Positions 48,239-52,238 of a stretch of DNA of 64,000 bases are shown here, piece by piece. Position numbers and translations under genes: made by a program. This DNA is from Hyphomicrobiales bacterium (GTDB lineage: Bacteria; Pseudomonadota; Alphaproteobacteria; Parvibaculales; Parvibaculaceae), in the NCBI GenBank assembly GCA_016124805.1, contig WGND01000001.1, forward strand, positions 62,001 through 126,000, given 5' to 3'. The notes under the pieces were generated by a model. That model had not been told where the DNA came from and ran no database searches. It worked only from the letters and a program-made list of their open reading frames with translations. How positions within the stretch are numbered: position 1 is the stretch's first letter; each line of letters begins with the position of its first letter.

Positions 48239-49780
48239 TCAGGCGACATCCCCCAGACGCTGGGCGATGGGCTCGCGATAGGCCAGCGCTTCGGCGACAT
48301 GCAACCGCCCCACCCCGTCGCGTCCCTCCAGATCGGCCAGGGTGCGGGCCACGCGCATGACGCGGTGATAGCCCCGCGCGGTCAGGCCCATGCGCTCAGC
48401 GGCCTGGGTGAGGAGCGCCCGGCCTGCCGCATCGGGTGCGGCGATTTTTTCCAGCCGTTCGCCTTCCATGGTGGCGTTGAGCCCCTGATCAGCCCCGCCG
48501 AGGGCGCGGGCAGCCTGCATGTCACGGGCGCGCGCCACACGCCGGGCGACCTCCGCCGAGCCTTCGGCGGGCGGCGGCAGCGAAAGATCGGCGGGGGAAA
48601 CAGGCGGTACCTCGATATGGATGTCGATGCGATCCAGCAGGGGGCCGGAGAGCTTGGCCTGATAGTCGCCCATGCAGCGCGGCACGCGGGCGCAGGCGCG
48701 CGCGGCATCGCTGGCATAGCCGCAGCGGCAGGGATTCATGGCCGCGACCAGCTGAAACCGGGCGGGATAGCTGACATGGGCATTGACGCGGGCGACCACC
48801 GCCTGCCCGGTTTCGAGCGGCTGGCGCAGGCTGTCGAGCACCTGACGGGGAAATTCCGGCAATTCATCAAGAAAGAGCACGCCGTGATGGGCGAGCGAGA
48901 CCTCGCCGGGTCTGGCGCGCAGGCCGCCGCCGATCAGGGCGGGCATGGAGGCGGAATGATGCGGCGTGCGGAAGGGGCGCCGCCGCGCCATGCCCTTGGT
49001 GGTCAATTCCCCGGCAATGGAATTGATCATGGAAAGCTCCAGCATCTCGCGCGGGGAAAGCGGCGGCAGGATGCCCGGCAGGCGCGCGGCGAGCATCGAC
49101 TTGCCTGAGCCGGGCGGGCCCACCATCAGCATGTTGTGACCCCCGGCGGCGGCGACTTCAAGCGCCCGCTTGGCGCTTTCCTGCCCCTTCACGTCGCGCA
49201 GATCGGGCAGCGCGCCCATTTCCATCGCCTTCATGGGGGCCGGTTCGCTCAGGACCTGCGTGCCCTTGAAATGATTGATGAGCTGGATGATGGAGAGCGG
49301 CGCGAGAATGCCGCCCGGATTTTCCTCGCCCATGCCCGCCCAGGCAGCTTCAGGCCCGCAATCCTTGGGGCAGATCAATCCGCGACCGCGGGCATTGGCG
49401 CCGATCGCGGCGGGCAAGGCACCGGCCACGGCATTGATCGCACCATCAAGGGAGAGCTCGCCAATGACAACAAATTTTTCAAGTTCCTGCGCGGGCAGCA
49501 CATCCATGGCGACAAGCAGCGCCAGCGCAATGGGCAGGTCATAATGGCTGCCTTCCTTGGGCAGGTCGGCAGGCGCGAGATTGACCGTGATGCGCTTGGG
49601 CGGCAGGCCGAGGCCAATGGCCGACAGCGCGGCGCGGACGCGCTCGCGGCTTTCGCCCACGGCCTTGTCGGCCAGCCCCACGACCGTGAAGGCGGGCACG
49701 CCGCTTGAAATCTGGACCTGAACATCGACGGGCCGGGCCTCCACGCCCTGAAAGGCGACCGTCTCGATATGCGCAACCAT
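48239..49780 (-). CDS. comM: ComM/YifB-family Mg-chelatase-like AAA ATPase
   Basis: 513 residues. The N-terminal ChlI/Lon-like domain (1-170) is followed by the AAA domain with Walker A GPPGSGKS (221-228), a Walker B region LFLDELPEF, and a CRCG-containing arm. ComM is a helicase that promotes branch migration during natural transformation; it is also widespread in bacteria not known to be competent. A LexA-type box lies 61 bp upstream, so DNA-damage control is likely. Confidence 0.93.
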   Translation of the reverse strand: MVAHIETVAFQGVEARPVDVQVQISSGVPAFTVVGLADKAVGESRERVRAALSAIGLGLPPKRITVNLAPADLPKEGSHYDLPIALALLVAMDVLPAQELEKFVVIGELSLDGAINAVAGALPAAIGANARGRGLICPKDCGPEAAWAGMGEENPGGILAPLSIIQLINHFKGTQVLSEPAPMKAMEMGALPDLRDVKGQESAKRALEVAAAGGHNMLMVGPPGSGKSMLAARLPGILPPLSPREMLELSMINSIAGELTTKGMARRRPFRTPHHSASMPALIGGGLRARPGEVSLAHHGVLFLDELPEFPRQVLDSLRQPLETGQAVVARVNAHVSYPARFQLVAAMNPCRCGYASDAARACARVPRCMGDYQAKLSGPLLDRIDIHIEVPPVSPADLSLPPPAEGSAEVARRVARARDMQAARALGGADQGLNATMEGERLEKIAAPDAAGRALLTQAAERMGLTARGYHRVMRVARTLADLEGRDGVGRLHVAEALAYREPIAQRLGDVA

Positions 49781-49840
49781 GCCCTTGCCCCGCAGCCCTT
49801 ATGGAACATCAAGGCTGGCCGAAAGGTGCTTTTCAGTCAA

Positions 49841-49855
49841 GAACAAAAGTGGAAC
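49841..49855 (-). promoter_or_regulatory. SOS (LexA) box before comM
   Basis: GAACAAAAGTGGAAC, on the minus strand GTTCCACTTTTGTTC, fits the alphaproteobacterial LexA operator GTTC-N7-GTTC exactly, with the T-rich spacer end often seen. It is 61 bp upstream of comM and 73 bp from the divergent secreted protein gene. comM has been reported in LexA regulons of alphaproteobacteria. Confidence 0.75.
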
Positions 49856-49927
49856 TCGGTGCCCTTTGCAAAACTGTCGCGAAGCGGGGGCAGAGTGCGG
49901 CTCGGCATTTTCTCTGCGAGGCCCCTC

Positions 49928-50290
49928 ATGAAGACCCTCTCTCTCCCCACGCTCCTGCTCGCCTGTCTGGCGCTGGCCGCCCCTTCGCAGGCGGAGGATG
50001 GCGCGCCTCTTCAGGAGATCGCCTGTTCGGCGGCGAAGACGACGAAATCCGTCTCGGCGGGGCCTGAGGTCAAACTCACTTTCACCAATGTGGGGGATAG
50101 CCCCGTCGACCTCAACTGGCTCAATTATGCGGGCGAGACGGTCTATTTCACGACGATCTATCCGCACTGGACCCATACGCAGAAAACCTTTGCGACACTT
50201 GTCTGGATGCTGAGCGATGAGGATGGCCACTGCCTGCGCATCATTACCGCCCCTGCGACGGCCACAACGCTTGAGATTTCTGCGCCCTGA
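49928..50290 (+). CDS. small secreted protein with VHL beta-domain-like sequence
   Basis: 120 residues. A signal peptide (1-22, PSQA-EDG) is followed by a short linker and an all-beta region (about 46-118). FTNVGDSPVDLNWLNYAGETVYF and the later TFATLVWMLSDEDGHCL resemble the von Hippel-Lindau beta domain (N-x-S-x-V-x-x-W-[LI]-[ND]-[YF]-x-G, then W-x-x-x-D). Bacterial VHL-like proteins exist but are poorly described. GCGAGG lies before ATG 49928; the open frame to 49769 overlaps comM and is discarded. It is divergent from comM and shares its spacer. Cys33 and Cys102 may form a disulfide. Confidence 0.72.
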   Translation: MKTLSLPTLLLACLALAAPSQAEDGAPLQEIACSAAKTTKSVSAGPEVKLTFTNVGDSPVDLNWLNYAGETVYFTTIYPHWTHTQKTFATLVWMLSDEDGHCLRIITAPATATTLEISAP

Positions 50291-50296
50291 GCAGGC

Positions 50297-51277
50297 TCAC
50301 CAGAAAGGGAGCGGGCTCTCGGGTGCCAGAAAGGGTTTCAGCCTTTCCCAGGGGATGGTCACCGTGCGATCGCCAAAGGAATAGGGCCCGACGCTATAGA
50401 CGGGAAAATTGACCCCCAGGCCTTCTGACGTCACGACCCAATAGGTTGGGTCGGGCGACATGGTTGCCACCCCCTCGCGGCCCTCGTCAAACAGCGGCTG
50501 GTCATCGGCCCGGGCCTGCGCCGCCAGATCAGCCAGCACCAGATCGGCCAATGCCGGCTGCCAGCCGCTATCGGGCAGAAATATGTCGCCGACGCTGACA
50601 AGCCGCCGTTCTTTCAGCAGATAGTTGAGATGCTCTGCCGCCCCCACGCCATGGGCGGCGCCCACGGGATAGATCCAGCCGAAATTATCGACACTGACAA
50701 GATCGTCCGTCGCCTCGTTGAGATTGAAATGGGCATAATCTCGCTGCGCCCCGTCAAAGCCGCTTTCAACAACCGGCCATATTCGGGCAAGCGCGCCATT
50801 GAAATCTTCCGTGGTTTCGGTCCGTGGCGCATCAATGCGCAGATGCAGGCGCTGCTGATACTGCATCGCGCCATCGCCATAGGAGTCGCCATCCGGTTTG
50901 GCAGGCGCGATGAAACGCCATTTGTCGAGGACGACAAAAACATAGGCCCCGCGCGTCAGGACAGCCCGCCCCATAAATTCGAGGCGTTCATCATATTGCG
51001 CGGCGAGACATTCGACATCGCCGCCACAGGCCCTGTTGCGAAAGACAAGCCAGCTTCGTTGCGAGGCGCGCAGGCCATCCTGGCCCGCATCGCTCAGCCT
51101 CGCGAGCTGGCGCGCATAAAGCGCGGCGAGGTCTTCATCCTGTTTTGAGATTTCCGGATTGGCGCAGATGAGCTTTTCCTGCTGCGTCGTTGCCCGCTTG
51201 CAATCAAAACTTGCTGCCGATGCCGAGAGAGGCAAGAGCGTTGCCGCCAGACAAAGGATCGCCGTTTTCATATTCAT
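50297..51277 (-). CDS. secreted LprI-domain protein with a DUF3298-like C-terminal half
   Basis: 326 residues from ATG 51277, with AGAGG 8 bases upstream. A signal peptide spans 1-21. The LprI-type (lysozyme-inhibitor-like, PF07007) N-terminal domain has Cys26, 38, 84 and 90 in FDCKRATTQQEKLIC and RSWLVFRNRAC...CL. The C-terminal part (about 130-326) looks like DUF3298/RsiV-type: YPVGAAHG and LKERRLVSVGDIF. RsiV-type domains can bind lysozyme. The protein may sense or resist cell-wall hydrolases, which is inference from domains. Confidence 0.78.
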   Translation of the reverse strand: MNMKTAILCLAATLLPLSASAASFDCKRATTQQEKLICANPEISKQDEDLAALYARQLARLSDAGQDGLRASQRSWLVFRNRACGGDVECLAAQYDERLEFMGRAVLTRGAYVFVVLDKWRFIAPAKPDGDSYGDGAMQYQQRLHLRIDAPRTETTEDFNGALARIWPVVESGFDGAQRDYAHFNLNEATDDLVSVDNFGWIYPVGAAHGVGAAEHLNYLLKERRLVSVGDIFLPDSGWQPALADLVLADLAAQARADDQPLFDEGREGVATMSPDPTYWVVTSEGLGVNFPVYSVGPYSFGDRTVTIPWERLKPFLAPESPLPFW

Positions 51278-51296
51278 GCGGCAAGCCTCTCTGCTG

Positions 51297-52238
51297 CTAG
51301 AGACGCGATTCAATCGCATCCCAGACGAGGCCTGAAAGATTTGATCCTTCGAAGCGGTCGATTTCCTGAATGCCCGTCGGCGAAGTCACATTGATCTCTG
51401 TCAGATAATCGCCGATCACGTCGATACCGACAAAGATCAGGCCGCGACGCTTCAGCTCCGGCCCGATGATCTCGCAGATTTCCTGCTCGCGTTTTGTCAG
51501 GGCGGATTTTTCCGGCCTGCCGCCGACATGCATGTTGGAGCGGGATTCACCTGCCGCCGGCACCCGGTTGATGGCGCCTGCCGGTTTGCCATCGACAAGG
51601 ATGATGCGCTTGTCGCCCTTGCGTACGTCGGGCAGATATTGCTGCACGATGACGGGCTCGCGGTTCATCTGGCCGAACATTTCCAAAAGCGAGGCGAGGT
51701 TCTCGTCACCCTCGCGCAGGCGGAAGACGCCCGCGCCGCCATTGCCGAAAAGCGGCTTGATGATGATGTCCCTGAACTCGTCGCGGAAGGCGCGGATTTC
51801 ACGCGGGTCGCGACTGATGAGTGTCGGCGGCAGCAGATTTTCAAAATGCAGGGCGAAAAGTTTTTCCGGCGCATTGCGCACTTCAGCAGGATCATTGACC
51901 ACCAGCGTCCTGGGATGGATAAGTTCGAGCATATGGGTCGCGGTGATGTAGCTCATGTCGAAGGGCGGGTCCTGCCGCATCAGCACGACATCCACATCAT
52001 CTTCGAGATTGAGCCGCGTCTCCTCGCCCAGCGTGGCGTGATTGCCGTGCTCGCGGCGCAGGGTCAGCGGGCGGACCAGCGCATAAACTTGACCATCGCG
52101 CATGGAGAGATGCTGGGGCTCGTAATAAAACAGTGTGTGGCCGCGCGCCTGCGCCTCCAGACCCAGGGCAAAGGTTGAATCACCATCAATATTGATGCTG
52201 GCAACGGGATCCATCTGGATGGCAACTTTGAGGCTCAT
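51297..52238 (-). CDS. gshB: glutathione synthetase
   Basis: 313 residues from ATG 52238, giving the conserved [30 protein letters not shown]; the longer frame is not conserved. GshB N-terminal and ATP-grasp parts are present ([66 protein letters not shown]). It joins gamma-glutamylcysteine and glycine. Neighbourhood with yraN, rsmI and an LpoA-like gene is common in alphaproteobacteria. Confidence 0.96.

Follow-up and report, generated by a model that had tools for sequence, protein, structure and literature searches.

A predicted exported bacterial protein with a VHL-type beta domain and a changed hydroxyproline pocket

In the oxygen sensing of animals, the von Hippel-Lindau protein (VHL) is known for reading hydroxyproline, and we know of no HIF pathway in bacteria that VHL domains could serve. 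A bacterial VHL-like domain was encountered in a 64,000-nucleotide stretch of DNA from a Hyphomicrobiales bacterium (the window), in which an earlier note had read one short gene as a free-standing, exported protein resembling the VHL beta domain. The gene and its start region were as follows.

49918..49921, + strand: GAGG, a possible ribosome-binding site 6 nt 5' of the ATG (sequence reading)
49928..50290, + strand: gene for an exported-looking VHL-beta-domain protein of 120 amino acids (ORF, Pfam, independent profile, predicted fold)
49928..49993, + strand: putative signal-peptide-like N-terminus, residues 1-22 (read by eye)

The ORF list and the translation gave an intact reading frame from ATG to stop codon. 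Its computed in-frame codon score was 0.174 per codon, compared with at most 0.08 in the other five frames, while the reference of 104 segments from 28 long ORFs had a 5th percentile of 0.108 and a median of 0.327; the codon usage was gene-like but modest. One antisense frame over the gene was likewise open, and the promoter/terminator scan found no + strand site for the gene. Residues 1-22, examined by eye, comprised K2, a hydrophobic stretch and S-Q-A before E23, and we infer that the protein is probably exported, with a putative periplasmic location. The Pfam match of the query to DIM (15.3 bits, cut-off 20.8) spanned the signal-like stretch only and was discounted.

The sequence motif quoted in the earlier note was real, but its letters had been slightly mis-transcribed; the protein reads N-V-G-D-S-P-V-D-L-N-W-L-N-Y-A-G and, later, W-M-L-S-D. 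Bacterial VHL domains match Pfam PF01847 (VHL beta domain) above the cut-off. The query scored 19.1 bits (E 0.0014), just short of the curated value of 21, and the class-level genome search with the Pfam family returned it at 19.4 bits (E 0.0028). No match was obtained when the Pfam family was searched against the whole genome at E 0.001, when the query sequence alone was searched for VHL among PDB sequences, or in the NCBIfam scan of the query. The evidence from the single sequence was thus only suggestive, and the identity was settled by the relatives.

The set of relatives consisted of 78 distinct domains, the query included, collected from plasmid records, the class-level genome search and a genome-contig scan (66 loci out of 90 pattern matches). 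A profile of 58 related domains, built without the query, detected the query among the 902 ORFs of the window with 70 bits (E 5e-21), while no other ORF exceeded 4.3 bits and none of 1000 shuffled versions of the query exceeded 6.9 bits. The profiles A1 (9 rows) and A3 (59 rows), each of which contains the query as one row, led to the human pVHL chains in PDB with E-values of 5e-7 and 4e-11, respectively, with the next unrelated matches at 0.005 and 0.68. The earlier note had named a negative profile search as evidence against its reading, and the opposite outcome was obtained at 70 bits.

The AlphaFold2 model of the mature protein, calculated with alignment A3, had a pLDDT of 91.1 and a pTM of 0.81. 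When this model was submitted to Foldseek, all 50 matches listed were pVHL entries (best E 2.7e-7; assigned by title and, for 6r7f, by PDB chain listing). VIA, which re-examined the matches that Foldseek had produced, again gave pVHL entries for 50 of the 50 listed, the best having a Z of 12.4 and an rmsd of 1.4 A over 83 residues at 20% identity, with model residues 16-98 aligned to human VHL 62-154. The domain of L031, from a Bradyrhizobium MAG and with all five pocket residues compared below, was modeled with a pLDDT of 94.9 and a pTM of 0.86, and its 50 listed Foldseek matches were likewise all pVHL entries (best E 2.5e-7). The fold and profile evidence is not fully independent, as the AlphaFold2 input alignment itself consisted of VHL-type domains. 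Nevertheless, the predicted structure was a VHL-type beta sandwich and not the differing fold that the earlier note had set against itself, and a VHL fold of the window protein is near certain. The likeness to the VHL beta domain was thus borne out by both sequence profiles and predicted structure.

The protein ends where the alignment reaches human VHL residue 154, so that the alpha (Elongin-binding) domain, which we take to lie beyond this point in human VHL, is absent. The window protein could therefore not build an Elongin/Cullin ligase.

PMC9528729 describes the hydroxyproline site of human VHL as Trp88, Tyr98, His110, Ser111, His115 and Trp117, in which Ser111 and His115 form hydrogen bonds with the hydroxyl group of hydroxyproline and Tyr98 bonds the carbonyl. 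Five of these positions were compared here, as His110, acting via its backbone, was left out of the scoring. The equivalent residues, placed by alignment, and two conserved cysteines were the following.

50024..50026, + strand: Cys33, first conserved cysteine, invariant in the 9-row alignment
50117..50119, + strand: Trp64, equivalent to human Trp88, kept
50147..50149, + strand: Phe74, equivalent to human Tyr98, changed
50186..50188, + strand: Thr87, equivalent to human Ser111, Thr for Ser
50198..50200, + strand: Leu91, equivalent to human His115, histidine lost
50204..50206, + strand: Trp93, equivalent to human Trp117, kept
50231..50233, + strand: Cys102, second conserved cysteine, invariant in the 9-row alignment and Cys in 45 of the 78 distinct domains

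In the 78 distinct domains, the five positions were occupied as follows: W at the Trp88 position in 77 with one gap, Y (67) or F (7) at the Tyr98 position, T (75) or S (3) at the Ser111 position, H at the His115 position in 76, and W at the Trp117 position in 77. Since HPW formed part of one of the two scan patterns, the 38 domains not matching this pattern, query included, were counted separately; H was found at the His115 position in 36 of them, while the query had L and L046 had Q. Eight of these 38 were repeats of the single protein L067, all of which kept H while the adjacent residues varied. A second sample of 13 further distinct domains, collected from whole genomes with profile A3, had W at the Trp88 position in 10, T or S at the Ser111 position in all 13, W at the Trp117 position in 12, and H at the His115 position in 10, the others having N (L116), S (L117) and T (L121). 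As Tyr occupied the Tyr98 position in just three of these 13, Phe74 is not remarkable and says little alone. With both samples pooled, H stood at the His115 position in 86 of 91 domains and the query was the sole one with Leu; loss of the pocket histidine is, as judged from these alignments, uncommon but not unique.

The peptide-binding residues that the earlier note had proposed for inspection were thus conserved in part: the equivalents of Trp88, Ser111 (as Thr) and Trp117 were kept, whereas those of His115 and Tyr98 were replaced by Leu91 and Phe74. Because of these two replacements, the recognition of hydroxyproline implied by the note was unsupported for the window protein and appears doubtful. 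As for the cysteines, a disulfide between Cys33 and Cys102 is possible.

The VHL-beta domain had a patchy distribution. In the order, it was found in one of 40 genomes (27 of which had a completeness of 90% or more and a contamination of 5% or less), namely the present genome only. A weak match in the congener G002 (E 0.005, one stop) was absent in the profile search and was taken as chance. In the class, 9 of 385 genomes matched the Pfam VHL family at E 0.01, including G074 and G208, whose matches, below the cut-off and interrupted by a stop codon, yielded no domain; the same number, 9 of 385, matched profile A3 at E 0.001. In the phylum, 11 of 398 genomes matched profile A3, the present genome being included in all three counts. 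The named loci came from Cyanobacteriota, Pseudomonadota, Myxococcota, Actinomycetota, Acidobacteriota and Verrucomicrobiota, and further from Lentisphaerota, Planctomycetota, Chloroflexota, Gemmatimonadota and Sericytochromatia. The simplest reading is the gain of a single gene by the present genome. A clear donor lineage was not obtained, as the tree of 72 domains gave the query no firm place (support 88/33). A phage or mobile origin was likewise unsupported: none of 50,697 phage records matched the query, the 28 and 26 pattern matches from two viral-contig scans included no relative, only 3 of 72,556 plasmid records matched, at 25-29% identity, and the scanned neighbours were chromosomal housekeeping genes. 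The GC content of the gene was like that of its surroundings.

The two genes flanking the locus lie outside the proposed system.

48239..49780, - strand: Mg-chelatase-like ATPase, divergent neighbour (Pfam)
50297..51319, - strand: protein with LprI and DUF3298 and a signal-like start, convergent neighbour nearly touching the VHL-beta gene (Pfam)

Owing to these divergent and convergent orientations, the VHL-beta gene would share no transcript with either neighbour, and an operon with a target was rejected. The Mg-chelatase-like gene, presumably of the ComM/YifB type, was found in 25 of 27 genomes of the genus, and a VHL gene stood beside it in none of the 24 other loci (L084 and L097 being partial loci). 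A lysozyme-inhibitor link via LprI was also unsupported, since an LprI homologue occurred beside the Mg-chelatase-like gene in 4 of 24 congener loci, at a distance of approximately 110-380 nt, without a VHL match; the corresponding gap in the window is 516 nt. The stretch beside the Mg-chelatase-like gene (49781-50296 in the window) differed among the congener loci L083-L106 and may be a small spot of gene gain and loss. The product of 50297-51319 also gave an NCBIfam match to a putative colistin-resistance family with 21.5 bits, far below the cut-off of 150.

The architectures of the relatives were examined by Pfam in eight proteins picked for length or features, not at random. VHL was accompanied by mannan-binding MVL (PF12151) in L020, by a DPP-IV/S9 peptidase in L058, by SEFIR/TIR in L048, by CHAT in L041, and by caspase and ricin lectin in L061, and was the only Pfam match in L024, L036 and L079. 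PADLOC assigned L048 to bSEFIR and nothing to L041, L061 or the query, so that no known defence system was indicated for the last. L039 had 34 kinase-type PADLOC matches, which may reflect any Ser/Thr kinase. The VHL-beta domain was located at the C-terminus in L048, L041, L061, L039 and L037, the last two being Ser/Thr-kinase-like by PADLOC and by similar sequence, respectively. This layout can be likened to that of bacterial immune proteins, in which an effector is combined with a sensor.

Other arrangements were also observed. In Rhodobacteraceae bacterium DSL-40, L067:4267-9933 is an open frame of 1889 residues with at least nine tandem VHL-beta domains, and the nine inspected all had the pocket histidine. 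In the Lentisphaerae proteins L058, L065 and L071, VHL stands ahead of a DPPIV_N region of the S9 prolyl oligopeptidase family (by Pfam in L058, by similar sequence in the others), and this combination of a proline-type peptidase and the VHL fold is suggestive. In L116 and L117, from two genomes but one family, a VHL-like domain follows a peptidase-like part; the pocket histidine is replaced by Asn in L116 and by Ser in L117, and the first tryptophan by Asn.

Compared with the human pVHL beta domain (PDB 1lqb, 1lm8, 4awj; PF01847), the query shares the predicted fold and the equivalents of Trp88, Trp117 and Ser111 (as Thr); it differs in lacking the alpha domain, in its signal-like N-terminus and two conserved cysteines, in Leu for His115 and Phe for Tyr98, and in scoring under the Pfam cut-off. 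The Nostoc sp. C057 plasmid protein WP_069068075.1 (L013) is, like the query, small, with a signal-like start, one VHL domain and both cysteines, but reads T-Y-V-T-H-P-W where the query has T-F-A-T-L-V-W. Alphaproteobacterial MAGs encode proteins that join VHL to MVL (assigned by Pfam for L020 and by alignment for L021, L023 and L027); these share with the query a signal-like start and a first VHL cysteine near the predicted mature N-terminus, but differ from it in having a second domain of lectin type and in retaining the histidine. By description, the query also resembles EMK97_00595 of Litorilituus sediminis, a predicted secreted protein with a VHL domain; PMC9002001, as far as available, describes it and reports no binding measurement, and the tumour-suppressor use suggested there does not follow from the content reported in that part.

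With respect to the literature, the statement in the earlier note that an exported bacterial version is poorly understood agreed with what was found, although bacterial VHL domains as such were already known (PMC9002001). Among the open-licence papers listed, titles and abstract openings showed no binding study or ligand data for a bacterial VHL member. An oxygen-sensing survey (PMC9618697) treats VHL in metazoans, and the matches to 'VHL' in PMC7694542 proved to be accession numbers.

Considering these results, we propose that the gene encodes an exported binding protein of one VHL beta domain, whose specificity would have shifted from hydroxyproline and whose likeliest ligand would be an unmodified proline or a hydrophobic group; the probability of this reading is estimated at about 0.5. 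The product would be a small, probably periplasmic protein, composed of the domain and an N-terminal extension and perhaps held by a Cys33-Cys102 bond. By analogy with the family, it would act as a binding module, whose pocket of Trp64 and Trp93, together with Thr87, might accommodate a single side chain from an extended peptide or another ligand. Leu91 and Phe74 would make this pocket greasier, the hydroxyl contact of His115 and the carbonyl contact of Tyr98 being lost, and because they replace these two residues, an unmodified proline or a hydrophobic side chain would be a likelier ligand than hydroxyproline. A role as a binding module fits, as the relatives join the VHL domain to lectin, peptidase and effector-like parts.

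Among the alternatives, it is unlikely that the protein is a glycan- or surface-associated module, and not a peptide reader, with the aromatic pocket stacking on sugars or simply forming part of the core. Lectin-type partners do occur in two of the eight Pfam-scanned relatives, the mannan-binding MVL of L020 and the ricin-type lectin of L061; the most conserved residues, however, include those of the human peptide pocket, and the fusions to DPP-IV peptidase, CHAT and SEFIR are not glycan-specific.

We consider it about as unlikely that hydroxyproline is still read, its hydroxyl group held by Thr87 alone or by a nearby polar residue (Tyr73, His83) and the ligand being hydroxyproline-rich proteins of a host, plant or alga. 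In favour of this, three equivalents are kept (those of Trp88, Trp117 and, as Thr, Ser111), and most of the first 78 bacterial domains retain all five residues, position by position, so that the ancestor may have bound hydroxyproline. In the window protein, on the other hand, the equivalents of both His115 and Tyr98 are gone, and the exported protein has no evident partner enzyme within the one oxygenase family sought, 2OG-Fe(II). Two proteins with PF13640 of this family were found in the genome away from the VHL-beta gene; as they were distant and had no signal-like start by eye, a close partner prolyl hydroxylase was rejected.

A wider form of the proposal, to which we give as little credence, would assign VHL-beta domains across many bacterial phyla a role beyond animal oxygen sensing, namely the reading of peptides of the hydroxyproline or proline type, in exported proteins as well as in CHAT, SEFIR/TIR, caspase and kinase proteins. 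In this view, the window protein would exemplify a natural change of specificity, from hydroxyproline to an unmodified proline or another hydrophobic ligand, through His to Leu and, at the Tyr position, Phe. The variation among the 13 further domains, at the position of Tyr and to a smaller extent at that of His, makes this form slightly less probable.

With no orthologue found in the order, the histidine change in the window protein may also be decay. A horizontally acquired VHL-beta gene that is now functionless, its binding site gone, is nonetheless quite improbable: it is the sole member in 40 genomes of the order, without the usual His and with a codon score under the median of local genes, but its frame is intact, with a signal-like start, conserved cysteines and core, and a confidently predicted fold. 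That the ORF arose by chance and merely resembles VHL can practically be dismissed, in spite of the Pfam score under the curated cut-off and the open antisense frame, as the independent profile gave 70 bits against no more than 6.9 for 1000 shuffles.

Across many phyla, bacterial proteins thus show the two tryptophans, the Thr/Ser and mostly the histidine of the human pocket. As a natural member lacking the histidine that would touch the hydroxyl group, the window protein could serve directly as a control in studies of whether there is any reading of hydroxyproline in the bacterial family.
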